Made by a program: the position numbers and the translations under genes
The notes under the pieces: generated by a model
What the model saw: only the letters and a program-made list of their open reading frames with translations
What the model was told of the DNA's origin: nothing
Databases searched by the model: none
Shown here: positions 16,413 through 57,759 of the stretch, in pieces
Position numbering within the stretch: the first letter of the stretch is position 1
How the letters are laid out: each line of letters begins with the position of its first letter
Source of the DNA: Jiangella alkaliphila
GTDB lineage: Bacteria; Actinomycetota; Actinomycetes; Jiangellales; Jiangellaceae
DNA length: 64,000 nt
Direction of reading: 5' to 3'
Assembly: GCF_900105925.1 (NCBI RefSeq)
Contig: NZ_LT629791.1
Location: 7,224,001 to 7,288,000 of the forward strand

Positions 16413-16441
16413 CGATGCGTGAAGCATCGTCACAGATGTGA
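16413..16441. promoter_or_regulatory. Two adjacent palindromes, candidate TetR operators
   Basis: CGATGC-GTGAA-GCATCG (16413-16429) is directly followed by TCACA-GA-TGTGA (16430-16441). Both contain GTGAAG as a direct repeat 19 bp apart. They abut the -35 element of the mmpL promoter, where a repressor would block RNA polymerase. Binding by the adjacent TetR protein is inferred. Confidence 0.6.
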
Positions 16442-16447
16442 AGACTC

Positions 16448-16477
16448 TTGACAAGTTTAGCCGCATCGTGTTTGTTA
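16448..16477 (+). promoter_or_regulatory. Probable promoter of the second mmpL gene
   Basis: A perfect TTGACA at 16448-16453 is followed, after 17-18 bp, by TTTGTT/TTGTTA as a weak -10. It lies just downstream of the two palindromes and about 55 bp before ATG 16531. Confidence 0.5.
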
Positions 16478-16530
16478 TGTCGAGTAACGGTCATGACGCC
16501 ACGTCACGTAACGCACCGAGGGGCAGCACG

Positions 16531-18897
16531 ATGAACGAGTCCACGACCAACGACGGACAGCGGCCCGCCACTCCGCCTGGATCCGGGGCGCCTGAGGGAT
16601 CCGGCGCCGACCAGCCGGACACCGCCGAATGGCGCGACGGCCCGGCCGGGGGCGGCGCGCCTCGTCCACCCGCCGATCCCCCACGACCCGGCGTGCTCGG
16701 CCGGCTGGCCGGCGCGTCCTACCGCCGCCGCGGCCGGGTCGTCGCCGCCTGGGTGGTGGCCATCGCGGCCGCGTTCGGGCTGTCGGCGGCCTTCGCGGGC
16801 GATTTCACCGCCGACTACTCCGCGCCGGGCTCGGACTCGCGCCAGGCGCAGGACCTGCTGGAGGAGCGCTTCCCGGCGCAGTCCGGCGACACCATCGACG
16901 TGGTGGTGAGGACGGACGGGGCCGCCGTCACCGATCCCGCGGTCCAGGCCGACGTGACGGCACTGCTCGACCAGCTGCGCACGCAGCCGCACGTCGTCGC
17001 CGTCGACGATCCTTACGAGACGGCGGGCGGGATCAGCCAGGACGGCGACATCCTCGTCGCGACGGTGAACCTCGACGTCGTCCTGCCCGACGACATGCCG
17101 GTCGAGGAGACCGAGGAACTGCTGGCCATGGCCGACGCCGCGGAGCGGCCGGGGCTGGAGATCGCGCTCGGCGGGCAGACCGTCGCGCTGGCGGAGCAGG
17201 GCGAGATCGGCTCCGAGGCGATCGGCATGGCGGCCGCCGCGGTGATCCTGCTCATCACGTTCGGCACGGTGGTCGCCGCCGGCCTCCCGCTGATCGTCGC
17301 GATCGCCGGGCTGGCGCTCAGCGGCATGCTCACCGGGCTGGTCGCCGCGGTGGTCGACGTCCCGGACTGGTCGACGGCGCTGGCGACGATGATGGGCATC
17401 GCACTGGGCATCGACTACGTGCTGCTCATGGTGACCCGGTTCCGCGAGTGGCGGGCCGCCGGCCTCGATCCGGAGCGGGCCACCATCGCGACGCTGGACA
17501 CCGCCGGCCGCGCCGTCATGGTCGCCGGCAGCACCGTCATGGTGAGCATGCTCGGCCTGTTCGCCATGGGCCTGACGTTCATGCAGGGCGCCTCGCTCGT
17601 CACCATCGTCGCCGTCGTGGTGGTCATGGCGGCCGCCGCGACGCTGTTCCCGGCGCTGCTCGGCTTCTTCGGCCGCTGGGTCGACCGGCTCCGCCTCCCG
17701 CTCGGCCGGCGCCGGCAGGCGACGGCGCAGCTGGCCGCGGGCGGCCACGTCGAGCCGTCGCGGGCCTGGATGCGCTGGGGCCGGCTGGTCGACCGGCACA
17801 GCATCATCGCGACGGTGGTGGGCGTCGGCCTGCTGCTGGCGCTGGCGGCGCCGTTCCTCGGCGTCCGGTTCGGCTTCCCCGACGCCGGCAACAACGCGGA
17901 GGACCGCTCGGCGCGGCAGGCGTACGACCTGCTGTCCGAGGGCTTCGGCGCCGGCGCGAACGGCCCGCTGCTGCTGGTCGCCGACCTGGACGACCCGACT
18001 GACGCCGACGGTCTGCCCGCGCTGAGCGAGGCGGTCGCCGCCACGCCGGGCGTCGCCGCCGTCATGCCGACGGTCGTCAACGAGGCCGGCGACGCCGGGC
18101 TGCTCACCGTCCTGCCGACGACCGGTCCACAGGACGCCGCGACGGAGGACCTCGTCCACACCCTGCGCGACGACGTGATCCCGGGCACCGGCGTCGAGGT
18201 GCACGTCGGCGGCGTGACGGCGACGTCGATCGACTCGACGGAGAACACGGCCGAGCGGTTGCCGCTACTGATCGGCGGCGTCGTGATCCTGTCGATGATC
18301 CTGCTGCTGGTGTCGTTCCGCAGCATCGTCATCCCGATCACCGCGGCGCTGATGAACCTGCTCTCCGTCGCCGCCGCGTACGGCGTGGTCGCGCTGGTCC
18401 TCGAGGGCGGCTGGGCCGGGCAGCTGATCGGCATCGACACCGAGACACCGATGCCGGCGTTCATCCCGGTGCTGGTCTTCGCGGTGCTGTTCGGGCTCTC
18501 GATGGACTACGAGGTGTTCCTGATCAGCCGCATGCGCGAAGCGTGGATGCGCACCGGCGACAACGCCCGGGCCATCGTCGAGGGGCTGGCCGGCACCGGC
18601 CGGGTCATCACCGCCGCGGCGGCGATCATGGTCGCGGTGTTCGCGGCGTTCATCCCCAGCCCGGAGGTGTTCCTCAAGGTCATCGGCGTCGGCATGGCCG
18701 CGGCGATCCTGGTCGACGCCACCGTCGTGCGGATGCTCCTGGTCCCGGCCGTCATGCACCTGCTGGGACGGTCGAACTGGTGGCTGCCGTCCTGGCTGGA
18801 GCGCCGGCTCCCGCAACTGCACGTCGAGGGCCGGCCCGAGGTGTACCTGCCTGACGGCGAGCCGGCGGATCAGCGGGAGCTCGCCCCCGCCCGCTGA
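16531..18897 (+). CDS. MMPL/RND family transporter, TetR-linked
   Basis: A 788-residue MmpL/RND exporter. A disordered Pro/Gly/Ala-rich cytoplasmic N terminus (about residues 1-55) precedes the first helix (VVAAWVVAIAAAFGLSAAF). The two halves each have a large external loop and a helix bundle; the proton-relay regions are ALGIDYVLLMVTRFREW and LFGLSMDYEVFLISRMREA, each with the family Asp-Tyr pair. ATG 16531 has GAGGGG about 10 nt upstream; GTG 16438 and ATG 16477 are in-frame but lie inside the promoter region. It is probably a drug or lipid exporter repressed by the divergent TetR protein. Confidence 0.92.
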   Translation: MNESTTNDGQRPATPPGSGAPEGSGADQPDTAEWRDGPAGGGAPRPPADPPRPGVLGRLAGASYRRRGRVVAAWVVAIAAAFGLSAAFAGDFTADYSAPGSDSRQAQDLLEERFPAQSGDTIDVVVRTDGAAVTDPAVQADVTALLDQLRTQPHVVAVDDPYETAGGISQDGDILVATVNLDVVLPDDMPVEETEELLAMADAAERPGLEIALGGQTVALAEQGEIGSEAIGMAAAAVILLITFGTVVAAGLPLIVAIAGLALSGMLTGLVAAVVDVPDWSTALATMMGIALGIDYVLLMVTRFREWRAAGLDPERATIATLDTAGRAVMVAGSTVMVSMLGLFAMGLTFMQGASLVTIVAVVVVMAAAATLFPALLGFFGRWVDRLRLPLGRRRQATAQLAAGGHVEPSRAWMRWGRLVDRHSIIATVVGVGLLLALAAPFLGVRFGFPDAGNNAEDRSARQAYDLLSEGFGAGANGPLLLVADLDDPTDADGLPALSEAVAATPGVAAVMPTVVNEAGDAGLLTVLPTTGPQDAATEDLVHTLRDDVIPGTGVEVHVGGVTATSIDSTENTAERLPLLIGGVVILSMILLLVSFRSIVIPITAALMNLLSVAAAYGVVALVLEGGWAGQLIGIDTETPMPAFIPVLVFAVLFGLSMDYEVFLISRMREAWMRTGDNARAIVEGLAGTGRVITAAAAIMVAVFAAFIPSPEVFLKVIGVGMAAAILVDATVVRMLLVPAVMHLLGRSNWWLPSWLERRLPQLHVEGRPEVYLPDGEPADQRELAPAR

Positions 18898-18902
18898 CCA
18901 TC

Positions 18903-18959
18903 CCCATGATCATGTTCCCTCGCGGTCGCTGACACGCCGCGAGGGAACATGATCATGGG
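18903..18959. terminator. 23-bp perfect inverted repeat, bidirectional terminator
   Basis: Arms 18903-18925 and 18937-18959 are perfect reverse complements around an 11-nt loop. Each arm holds the self-complementary CATGATCATG next to TTCCCTCGCGG. The hairpin fills the whole gap between the MmpL stop and the convergent gdh stop (18960-18962). It is far longer than a usual terminator stem. Confidence 0.85.
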
Positions 18960-21900
18960 CTAGGTCGCGTCGGGGCGGAGCAGGCCGCGGACGGCGCGTA
19001 GGCCGACCGACAGGCGGGCGAGGTCGAAGTTGTCGCCCTCGACGATCTCGCGGAGCATGCCCTGGGTCCGGGCGACGACGATCTCGTCCTGCCCAGCCCA
19101 CGCCTCGACCCGGTCCTGCGGCGCCGCCTCCTCGTGCGTGTGCTGGATGACCTGCGCCGTCAGCGCCGCCTGCACGGCGTGGAGGTCGTCGCGCAGGGCG
19201 GCGCGGGCCATGGTCTGCCAGCGGTCGCGCCGCGGCAGCGAGATGATCCGCTCCAGCAGCCGGCCGAGCTCGAGGAACGCGCCCAGCGTGAAGTGCACCC
19301 GGGCGACCTCGAGCAGGTCGGTGCCGGTGGCCAGCGAGTTCTCCACCATGCCGAGCCCGGCGTACGCGGGCGGCAGCACCGCCACCCGGTTGGCCAGCGG
19401 CTCGGGCACGCCGTCGGCGCGCAGCGCCTCCAGCCGCTCGTGGTAGAGGTCCAGCTCACGGCCGGACAGCACCTCGGGCAGCGTCAGCAGCAGCCGGGCG
19501 ATCGGCTCTTCGAAGAACCCGATCTGCCAGGCGATGTCGATCGGCGGCCGGCGGTTGACGGTGAGCCAGCGGGTGGCCCGCTCGGTGATCGTCCGACCCT
19601 CCAGCCGCATGCGGGTCTGGACGTCGAACGACACGACGTTGTCCAGCTCCTTCACCGCGGCCAGCAACTCCGGGATCTGGAACACGACGCCGCCGACGGT
19701 GTGCGCGCGGGCGAGGTCCTCGACCGTCCCGCCGGTCTCCATGCCCAGCCGGTAGGCGAACGTCGAGCCCGCGGTGTTCACCAGCTCGTTGACCACGACG
19801 TTCGTGATGATCTCGCGGCGCAGCGGGTGGTCGTCGATGACCTCGCCGTAGGTATCGCGCAGCGCGCTCGGGAAGTACGCGTGCAGCGCGGCGCCGAGGT
19901 ACGGGTCGTCGGGCATGTGGCCGGCCAGCAGCTCCTCGTACATGAGGTTCTTCGTGTACGCGAACAGGACGGACAGCTCCGGGCTGGTCAGGCCCTTGCC
20001 GGCGCTCATGCGCTCGCCCAGCTGCCGGTCGGTCGGCAGCGCCTCCAGCTCGCGGTCGAGCTTGCCCTCGCTCTCCAGCTTGGCGAGGTAGGAGCGGTGG
20101 ACGTGGGCGAGGTTCGCCGCCTGGAAGACGCCGTTGGCCAGCGCGATGTTCTGGCCGTAGTTGTTGGCGAGGACGAGGTCGGCGATCTCGCCGGTCATCT
20201 CGGCCAGCAGCTCGTTGCGCTGCTTGTCGGTGAGGTCGCCGGAGCGCACGACGCCGTCGAGCAGGATCTTGATGTTGACCTCGTGGTCGGACGTGTCGAC
20301 GCCGGCGGAGTTGTCGATGGCGTCGGTGTTGATGCGCCCGCCGTTGACGGCGAACTCGATGCGGCCGCGCTGGGTCAGGCCGAGGTTGCCGCCCTCGCCG
20401 ATGACCTTTGCGCGCAGGTCGCTCGCGTCGATGCGGATGGCGTCGTTGGCCTTGTCGCCCACCTCGCCGTGCGACTCCGTCGACGCCTTGACGTAGGTGC
20501 CGATGCCGCCGTTCCAGAGCAGGTCGACGGGCGCGCCGAGGATCGCGTGCATCAGCTCAGGCGGCGTCATGGTCTCGACCGACGCGTCGATGCCCAGCGC
20601 CTGCTTGGCCTCGGCCGACAGCTTGATCGTCTTCGCGGTGCGCGGGTAGACGCCGCCGCCCTCGCTGATCAGCTTGGGCTCGTAGTCGTTCCAGCTCGAC
20701 CGCGGCAGCTCGAACAGCCGGCGACGCTCGCCGTAGGACTCCGCGGCGTCGGGGTCGGGGTCGATGAAGATGTGCCGGTGGTCGAACGCGGCGACCAGCC
20801 TGATGTGCTCGGACAGCAGCATGCCGTTGCCGAACACGTCGCCGGACATGTCGCCGACGCCGACGACGGTGAGGTCCTCGGCCTGGATGTCGCGGCCGAG
20901 CTGGCGGAAGTGCCGCTTCACCGACTCCCAGGCGCCGCGCGCGGTGATGCCCATGGCCTTGTGGTCGTAGCCGGCCGACCCGCCTGACGCGAAGGCGTCG
21001 CCGAGCCAGAAGCCGTACTCCTTGGACACGTCGTTGGCGATGTCGGAGAACGACGCCGTGCCCTTGTCGGCCGCGACCACGAGGTACGGGTCGTCGCCGT
21101 CGTGCCGGACGACCTGCGGCGGCGCGACGACGCTGCGGTCGGCGGCGCGGTTGTCGGTGATGTCGAGCATGGCCCGGATGAACGTCTTGTAGCACTCGAC
21201 GCCCTCGGCCAGCCACGCCTCGCGGTCGACGGAGGGGTCGGGCAGCCGCTTGCCGACGAAGCCGCCCTTCGCCCCGACCGGGACGATGACGGAGTTCTTC
21301 ACCGCCTGCGCCTTCACCAGACCGAGGATCTCGGTACGGAAGTCCTCGCGGCGGTCGGACCAGCGCAGGCCGCCCCGGGCGACGGCACCGAAGCGCAGGT
21401 GCACGCCCTCGACCCGCGGCGAGTAGACCCAGATCTCGTACACCGGCCTCGGGTCGGGCAGGTCCGGCAGCGACCGGGAGTCGAGCTTGAAGCTGGTCAC
21501 CGTCTGCGGGCCGCCGACGGTCGTGCGGTAGTAGCTGGTCCGCAGCGTGGCGTTCACCAGCCGCAGGAACGACCGCAGGATGCGGTCCTGGTCGAGGCTG
21601 GCGACCTGGTTCAGCGCCTCGTCGACGCGCTCGGTGAGCTGCTCGGCGGCCGCCCGGCGTGCCGCCCGGCCGGCGTCGTCGTCGCCGTAGCGCTCGGGGT
21701 CGAACCGGGTCTCGAACAGGTCGACCAGCATGCGCGCCACCTCGACGTGGCCCGACAGCGCCTCCTCGAGGTAGTTCTGGCTGAACGTGGTGCCGGTCTG
21801 GCGCAGGTACTTGGCGTACGCGCGCAGGATCGACGCCTGCCGCCACGACAGCGCCGCCTGCGGCACCAGCGCGTTGAACCCGTCGCTCTCGGCGTCGCCC

Positions 21901-23939: not shown

Positions 23940-23968
23940 TGATCACTTATTGCGATCGCTGATGATCA
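23940..23968. other. Cluster of GATC palindromes after kynA
   Basis: TGATCA (23940), GCGATCGC (23952) and TGATCA (23963) occur within 29 bp, over the kynA stop codon and upstream of gdh. They could pair in several ways to form a weak terminator or be protein sites. No clear role. Confidence 0.35.
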
Positions 23969-24802
23969 GAGCCAGGAGCGCAGCTCCCAGAGCAGCGGGT
24001 AGTAGCGGAAGTCGAGGCGACTGCGCAGGTAGGAGGCGCCGGACGAGCCGCCGGTGCCGGTTTTCGTCCCGATCATCCGCTCGACCATCGTGACGTGCCG
24101 GGCCCGCCAGCCCGCGGCCAGCTCGTCGTGCGTCATCAGCCCTTCGGCCAGCTCCCAGACGTCGCCGAAGCCGCCGCGATCGTGCGCCGCGTTGCGCAGG
24201 GACGCGCTGATCTCGTCGTCGCTGCCGGCCGCGAGGTCGTGGGCGCGCAGCACGCACAGGAACGCGTCCCACAGGGTGGGCTCCTCGAGCCGGCGGCGCA
24301 GCCGGGCCGCCTCGTCCTCCGTCAGCGACCGGAACCGGCGCAGGAACGCCGCGTCCTTCGCGCCGGAGATGAACTCCAGCTCGCGGAACTGCACCGACTG
24401 GAACCCGCTCGCCGGCGCCAGCCGGGCCCTGAACTGGAGGAAGTCCTGCGGCGTCATCGTCTCCAGGACGCCGACCTGCTCGATCAGGATCCGCTCGATC
24501 TCGTGCACCCTGGTCAGCAGGTGCCGCGCCCACCACAGGCGGTCGTCGAACATCGCCTGCCGAGCCGACTCCAGCTCGTGCAGCAGCTGCTTGAACCACA
24601 GCTCGTAGACCTGGTGGATGGTGATGAACAGCAGCTCGTCGTGAGCATCGGTCTCGAGACGCTGCTGGTCGAGCAGCTGCGCGAGACGCAGGTACGTGCC
24701 ATAGCTGAGCCGGGCACCGTCCTCGCCGAAATGGGCGGACGGAGGGCTGATCTCCTGGTCGGGTGTCACGTCGCCAGCGTATGGGTCAGGATGTGGAGCC
24801 AT
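23966..24802 (-). CDS. kynA: Tryptophan 2,3-dioxygenase
   Basis: A haem dioxygenase that opens the indole ring of tryptophan to N-formylkynurenine, the first step of the kynurenine pathway. The 278-residue protein has LLFITIHQVYELWFKQLLHE (active-site His region), SGFQSVQFRELEF, and the haem-ligand/substrate region ARHVTMVERMIGTKTGTGGS. No kynureninase or formamidase gene is in the window. ATG 24802 overlaps the start codon of the divergent DUF2505 gene; GTG 24769 (267 residues) would leave a small promoter gap and is equally possible, since the conserved domain begins at about residue 33 (LSYGTYL). Confidence 0.94.
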   Translation of the reverse strand: MAPHPDPYAGDVTPDQEISPPSAHFGEDGARLSYGTYLRLAQLLDQQRLETDAHDELLFITIHQVYELWFKQLLHELESARQAMFDDRLWWARHLLTRVHEIERILIEQVGVLETMTPQDFLQFRARLAPASGFQSVQFRELEFISGAKDAAFLRRFRSLTEDEAARLRRRLEEPTLWDAFLCVLRAHDLAAGSDDEISASLRNAAHDRGGFGDVWELAEGLMTHDELAAGWRARHVTMVERMIGTKTGTGGSSGASYLRSRLDFRYYPLLWELRSWL

Positions 24803-33673: not shown

Positions 33674-33747
33674 AGTTGATCTTGGACTTCTTCGGCAATT
33701 GCGGTCCGAAATGCCCGTTAGATGGCCGAACGACTCCAAGATCAACT
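33674..33747. terminator. Interrupted hairpin between convergent genes
   Basis: AGTTGATCTTGGA (33674-33686) pairs with TCCAAGATCAACT (33735-33747), and TTCGGC/GCCGAA extend the stem after a few mismatches. The gap between the convergent GNAT and YcaQ-like genes holds only this and a purine/C-rich GGCCCGA repeat at 33644-33674. Confidence 0.65.
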
Positions 33748-57719: not shown

Positions 57720-57759
57720 AGCTCCCGTCCCGCCGGTCCGAGCCGGCGGGACGGGAGCT
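57720..57759 (-). terminator. Terminator of the giant secreted protein gene
   Basis: AGCTCCCGTCCCGCCGG (57720-57736) pairs perfectly with its reverse complement at 57743-57759 over a 6-nt loop, 15 bp after the giant gene's stop. On the minus strand it is followed by TTCACGTG. Confidence 0.85.

Follow-up and report, generated by a model that had tools for sequence, protein, structure and literature searches.

A palindromic hairpin between convergent genes of Jiangella alkaliphila as the probable solo copy of a REP-like element associated with AbiEi-Vsr genes

The 64,000-nucleotide stretch of the Jiangella alkaliphila genome analyzed here (the window) contains, between two convergent genes, a hairpin that is not a lone terminator. 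Our analysis indicates that it is probably a solo, non-autonomous REP-like palindrome that owes its spread to a cognate AbiEi-Vsr nuclease; the partner of this palindrome is a hairpin-gene-hairpin unit on the same contig, ~344 kb away at 7587026-7588171. The hairpin family is associated with an AbiEi-Vsr gene, and by analogy with REP/RAYT we infer that the protein encoded by this gene cuts and mobilizes the hairpin. More broadly, we lean toward the view that Actinobacteria have a palindrome-spreading system of their own, independent of REP/RAYT, in which AbiEi-Vsr fusion nucleases would recognize and cut private hairpins and give rise to solo copies near the ends of genes. This would apparently be an undescribed nuclease-palindrome system in Actinomycetes. 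Every palindrome-spreading system known to us uses an enzyme class other than this candidate, and a literature search (titles and abstract beginnings, with few subscription journals covered) gave, among the matches listed, none in which repeated palindromes are linked to AbiEi, DUF559, or Vsr-type proteins.

The features of the site are listed in Table 1. A sequence-only reading of the window had pointed to a perfect 23-bp stem between convergent genes, ending at a stop codon and containing the self-complementary CATGATCATG in its arms, and this description holds in full. All 23 positions are paired, CATGATCATG is present in each arm, and the stem abuts the TAG stop of the dehydrogenase gene (18960-18962 on the minus strand), while the MMPL gene, for which the start codon is as predicted and hence putative, terminates with a TGA at 18895-18897. 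The gap between the two genes is almost entirely taken up by the hairpin. The predicted RNA fold of 18890-18975 has an energy of -64.4 kcal/mol (z = -10.6), which was equalled by none of 200 shuffles. The stem is the longest perfect one in the window, the runner-up being 17 bp long at 57720, and we estimate that ~3e-6 perfect 23-bp stems (loop of at most 60 nt) would be expected by chance in 64 kb of the same base composition. Because the loop is asymmetric, each copy of the hairpin has an orientation, that of the window copy being forward. An Rfam scan of the window gave no match at the gathering score. Two other palindromes were seen in the window. A long imperfect hairpin (AGTTGATCTTGGA...) at 33674-33747, for which no cognate gene was seen, resembles TTGATCTTGGAG hairpins present at orthologous sites in relatives, and an imperfect palindrome with TGATCATCAGCGATC at 23940-23972, between the dehydrogenase gene and its next neighbor, may be a degenerate copy of a related hairpin.

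Table 1. Features of the hairpin site and the genes on either side (positions in the window)
Feature	Position	Strand	Sequence or remark
Left arm of the perfect 23-bp stem	18903..18925	+	CCCATGATCATGTTCCCTCGCGG
Asymmetric loop, 11 nt	18926..18936	+	TCGCTGACACG
Right arm of the perfect stem	18937..18959	+	CCGCGAGGGAACATGATCATGGG
Repeat core, 53 bp	18905..18957	no strand	CATGATCATG at both ends; ~20 genomic places
MMPL family transporter gene	16438..18897	+	Pfam; stop 5 bases ahead of the stem
NAD-glutamate dehydrogenase gene, 1634 aa	18960..23864	-	Pfam Bac_GDH; stop abuts the stem

The hairpin is repeated across the genome, which was searched as a single contig of 7.72 Mb. With at most two mismatches allowed, the arm has 25 + 31 occurrences and the reversed pattern 2 + 0. 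A covariance model built from 15 aligned copies gives 40 matches, which amount to 20 distinct places since each is scored on both strands; one of these places (4606593) is a member of a related family. In the 15 aligned copies the cores are of equal length and the asymmetric loop points in either direction. One stem position has a CG pair in six of them, a GC pair in six, and no pairing in three. Selection on DNA structure, one of the suggestions of the sequence-only reading, is compatible with this pattern since both arms change together at that pair, while copying could yield the same result. When 18 of the copies were inspected (the places at 3955504 and 4606593 lie outside this set), 14 were found to lie 25 bp or less from an ORF boundary, as predicted by a crude ORF call, 8 lay between convergent ORFs, 8 between tandem ORFs, and 2 between divergent ORFs; 17 had no ORF running across them and one had a weak one. 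Comparison of the flanks of 43 distinct copies, and of 13 sites with their counterparts in relatives, established no target-site duplication. Some flanks hinted that the hairpin inserts into the tips of pre-existing palindromes, an idea that we set aside because complementarity beyond the core, in the 43 copies, is clear only at offsets 1-2 (offset 6 gave an uncorrected p of 0.03).

The family extends to relatives, in which it turns over. Among 60 genomes, the covariance model, which also catches related families, finds matches in 20, that is, all 12 Jiangella (our own included), 8 of 10 other members of the family Jiangellaceae, and none of 38 genomes elsewhere in the class. A stricter arm pattern, for which the control gave one chance match in 22 genomes, is found in 11 of the 12 Jiangella (our own included, G005 being the exception) and 4 of the 10 other family members. 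The hairpin could have been unique and not conserved in relatives; there are instead ~20 copies in its own genome and matches in 11 of 11 other Jiangella by the model, 10 of 11 by the stricter pattern. Outside Jiangella, the exact arm pattern was matched in 8 of 25 stretches, and only that from Actinomadura alba (L095) is a hairpin, a solo one possibly acquired by transfer, the other seven not being hairpins. At the orthologues of the window site, the gap is occupied by TTGCAATGA-type and TGGCTGGCGG-type hairpins in two Jiangella genomes, by an CACCTGATCGTTT-type in one, and by G+C-rich stems in others; long hairpin families other than that of the window copy and with no enzyme assigned to them (TTGCAATGAGCACC, CACCTGATCGTTTC) were noticed in this gap at L102-L105 and L112. 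Solo sites elsewhere in the genome behave similarly in relatives, as compared across sites some of which have gaps of several hundred bases (4116272 and 343389 had no usable flank pair). The hairpin at 7541536 is retained in G009 and replaced by 11 bp in G008, that at 5077715 is retained in G007 with 22-25 bp instead in four genomes, and the sites 1680195, 4649640, and 7640763 have a different hairpin family at the orthologous position. Since orthologous sites can contain the same hairpin, one of another family, or none, the hairpin turns over. The suggestion of a mobile repeat family made from the sequence alone is thus borne out by the 20 genomic places, the Jiangella-wide matches, and the presence, absence, or replacement of the hairpin at orthologous sites.

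The association with a gene emerges from the unit mentioned above, in which hairpin copies at 7587026 and 7588113, 1087 bp apart, bracket a minus-strand gene of AbiEi_4 type (L141). The L141 protein matches AbiEi_4 with an E value of 3.3e-5, which just misses the curated cut-off when the protein is scanned and passes it when the genome is, and shows a weak similarity to DUF559 (E 0.059). With only five matches in the genome, DUF559 was too weak as a family marker, and AbiEi_4 was taken for this reason. Another AbiEi-like gene (L145) lies between two copies of a hairpin distinct from this one. Since both genes are hairpin-flanked, we compared the flanks of AbiEi_4 genes across the 12 Jiangella genomes, using 124 genes (122, minus two at contig ends, plus four weaker ones from our own genome), 120 of which had usable flanks. 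Repeats matched on both sides with a score of at least 20 were found for 53 of these 120 genes, against 7 of 692 control pairs in which upstream and downstream flanks came from different genes of the same genome; at a score of at least 30 the figures are 47 of 120 and 1 of 692. The short AbiEi proteins, too short to contain both parts of the fusion, offer an internal control. Matched pairs flank 50 of 91 genes encoding proteins of 280-375 aa (leaving 41 with no detected pair), 2 of 24 encoding shorter ones, and none of four encoding longer ones; L217, which is interrupted by an in-frame stop, was excluded from the protein counts. When the proteins are grouped at 80% identity, matched pairs are seen in 26 of 55 clusters of long proteins and in 1 of 20 clusters of short ones. 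The same holds in a sample of the class, comprising 43 genes, one of which was dropped for its short flank, with two of the remaining 42 from the same family as Jiangella but a different genus. Here, 21 of 42 genes have matched pairs against 4 of 1722 mismatched combinations, these being 21 of 31 long genes (10 have no detected pair) and none of 11 short ones; 14 of 42 remain at a score of at least 25, and class-level pairs scoring 20-23 may be partly due to chance.

These pairs bear directly on the possibility that the hairpins are terminators or mRNA-end stabilizers spread by gene conversion or recombination, with AbiEi-Vsr genes bounded by them by chance. The stem is indeed very stable, copies lie near gene boundaries with 8 of 18 between convergent ORFs, and orthologous sites often have a hairpin of another family, all of which would suit such a role. 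Yet a scan of 18700-19200 for a hairpin followed by a T-run found no terminator-like site at the window hairpin, and this explanation does not account for gene-specific matched pairs or for their near absence around short AbiEi genes. A control of 29 window genes gave one marginal pair (score 20.5). We therefore regard it as rather unlikely as a full explanation. Inheritance and gene conversion could nevertheless explain part of the pattern, and individual copies may act as terminators, which would not conflict with mobilization. The third suggestion of the sequence-only reading, that the stem prevents read-through into the opposing dehydrogenase gene, describes a role that the window copy might have, although the scan gave no terminator-like site there.

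Different AbiEi_4 genes carry different repeats, many of which share a common outer CATGATCAT and diverge inwards, while some gene-flanking repeats are unrelated in sequence and some (e.g., at L168) are longer and not simple stems. Over 52 genes, repeat similarity correlates with protein identity (Spearman 0.65; Mantel 0/500), and within the L141 clade the correlation persists for pairs below 75% identity (rho 0.405; 1/1000). Repeats and proteins thus diverge together, yielding many family-specific pairs. The number of copies follows the gene less closely. Gene-bearing genomes have from 10 arms (G004) to 52 (G003), and the genomes whose AbiEi_4 matches include no L141-like gene have 0 (G005), 3 (G010), 16 (G011), and 24 (G006), so the rule that presence of the cognate gene means more copies is not clean and was dropped. 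In G001, the cognate gene (L217) has one in-frame TAG, yet there are 18 + 16 hairpin arms in the genome.

What kind of protein do these genes encode? The predicted structure of the ~320-aa protein (AlphaFold, pLDDT 89, pTM 0.83) combines an AbiEi-type part with an endonuclease fold of Vsr type at the C terminus. A second-look structural alignment superposes residues 3-199 on the AbiEi antitoxin of Streptococcus agalactiae (6y8q; Z 13.2, 186 residues aligned), and residues 202-306 on 3hrl (NGO0050; Z 12.1), the catalytic domain of I-Bth0305I (11.8), and E. coli Vsr (9.7). Foldseek returned AbiEi with an E value of 1.5e-7, the only match passing 0.001, and the nuclease part weakly (3hrl E 0.19, I-Bth0305I E 0.24) with probabilities of 0.95-0.96, while a profile search found 3hrl at E 0.007. 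E207, D238, and R267 are invariant in all 50 Jiangella proteins and all 21 repeat-flanked proteins from elsewhere, and E249 and D251 are found in 49 of the 50 and all 21. These five residues would form the active site of the modeled domain, and the protein probably cuts DNA. Long class-level proteins with no detected repeats keep E207, D238, E249, and D251 in 9 of 10 cases, which indicates that the nuclease can be intact in the absence of a pair. In an alignment of 49 proteins, AbiEi_4 is recognized in all (E ≤ 0.01), DUF559 in 8, and MTES_1575 in 3, while NCBIfam gives no match at E ≤ 0.01. Ten neighboring ORFs at five loci, some of which are perhaps not real genes, revealed by eye no toxin-like partner, such as the nucleotidyltransferase-like AbiEii that accompanies AbiEi in type IV AbiE systems, and, where gene-like, appeared to be ordinary metabolic or transport genes.

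Such a protein could also be a regulator, or a defense or homing nuclease, for which the hairpins would be operators or recognition sites and the solo copies regulatory or self-marking binding sites. Excerpts of PMC7319586 describe the binding of AbiEi antitoxins to inverted repeats within their own promoter. All three proteins tested are recognized by PADLOC models named AbiEi, and the catalytic fold is like that of the homing endonuclease I-Bth0305I. An operator is expected upstream only, however, and here a copy lies at the stop codon too. Copies turn over at orthologous sites, and in G003 (L223) the unit is located elsewhere, with homology to the L141 locus confined to the hairpin-gene-hairpin segment (L141 positions 1340-2483). 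For these reasons, we consider this explanation improbable.

Movement of the whole unit nevertheless appears to be rare, because the gene sits at the same locus in five other genomes, co-linear with L141 across 3.1 kb. Two genomes have units with different hairpins, in opposite orientation, between the same two kinds of neighbor gene (L207 and L189, the proteins being 74% identical), which is possibly an insertion hot spot. Among co-linear copies (L141, L206, L211, L217, L219, L221), the direction of the loop varies, as though the tip could flip over in situ. Hairpins of the CGGCGATC family appear to be the target of another element. A ~200-bp MITE-like insert with ends GAGCCTGTTGC...GCAACAGGCTC is found in the tip of such hairpins (L271:1460-1800 and L274:1460-1800), similar sequence occurs at L261 and L266 (score about 200), and L261 has a different insert with the same ends (GAGCCTGTTGC...GCAACAGGCTC) in a hairpin of this kind.

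Beside the upstream hairpin there is commonly an TTGTCCACA-like site, which we take to be a DnaA-box consensus. On the strand of the gene, it is present in the upstream flank of 47 of 51 repeat-flanked Jiangella genes (e.g., L141, L207, L145), 28 of 45 long genes around which no repeats were detected, and 3 of 24 short genes, while the downstream flanks of the 51 genes contain one and the 64-kb window none. Across the class the link is looser, with 5 of 21 repeat-flanked, 5 of 10 long unflanked, and 0 of 11 short genes. The site may be part of a promoter or a link to replication, and a DnaA-box-like motif beside the hairpin may couple spreading to replication.

Taken together, the most economical reading is that the AbiEi-Vsr protein binds and cuts the hairpin and seeds solo copies, since RAYT/REP is reported to have the same layout and the same co-divergence. 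The winged-helix AbiEi part would recognize its own hairpin family, as AbiEi antitoxins do inverted repeats, and the Vsr-type domain would cut at the hairpin or next to it, perhaps while the hairpin is extruded or in single-stranded form at a replication fork. Host replication or repair would then copy the hairpin to a new site, mostly near a gene boundary, which is where the copies are found, and the joint divergence of repeat and protein would account for the many family-specific pairs observed. After insertion, a hairpin could serve as a two-way transcript-end structure for convergent genes, as the window copy may do. Should this reading be correct, repeated palindromes would have acquired a dedicated enzyme on at least two occasions, once HUH transposases and once a Vsr-type nuclease, which bears on how REP-like sequences spread. 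The origin of many strong hairpins at actinobacterial gene ends would be explained, and many genes annotated as AbiEi antitoxins or DUF559 would be enzymes of mobile elements rather than parts of toxin-antitoxin systems. Matched specificities, a protein family with its hairpin family, would moreover be available for direct testing.

The closest known counterpart is the REP/RAYT system (REPtrons). Excerpts of PMC2817692 and PMC3733652 describe short extragenic palindromes in many copies and, in the former, a single-gene unit between two copies of the repeat, with repeat and enzyme co-diverging. The arrangement here is the same with another enzyme, the gene lying between two copies of its own repeat in 53 of the 120 cases. 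The element is larger, 53-59 bp against the 20-40 bp given for REPs in the part of PMC3733652 considered. The window copy has no GTAG tag on either strand, its ends being CATGATCATG, and the candidate enzyme is AbiEi + Vsr-type, not a Y1 HUH transposase. A search for the Y1 domain (PF01797, E ≤ 0.01) was negative in all 12 Jiangella genomes and positive in 6 of 14 control genomes, which led us to discard a RAYT origin. With no Y1 transposase found and no GTAG tag, the system falls outside the REP/RAYT family, and our best reading is that the two are convergent and unrelated. That some other transposase moves the hairpins, with AbiEi-Vsr genes as passengers, would suit their REP-like size and position and is highly improbable, given the absence of Y1, the class searched, from the 12 genomes and cognate pairs that track, and diverge with, the AbiEi-Vsr genes. 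As in MITEs and insertion sequences, short non-autonomous copies coexist with a coding unit with repeated ends, but here the ends are complete hairpins also found alone, and no target duplication was established. An intrinsic terminator shares the G+C-rich hairpin and differs by its T-run, a site not found in 18700-19200. The AbiEi-Vsr protein, finally, has the AbiEi fold of type IV antitoxins in residues 3-199, to which a C-terminal nuclease fold is added, and it shares that fold and conserved acidic residues with the Vsr, DUF559, and MTES_1575 endonucleases and I-Bth0305I, from which it is set apart by the fused AbiEi part and by cognate palindromes often lying on both sides of its gene.
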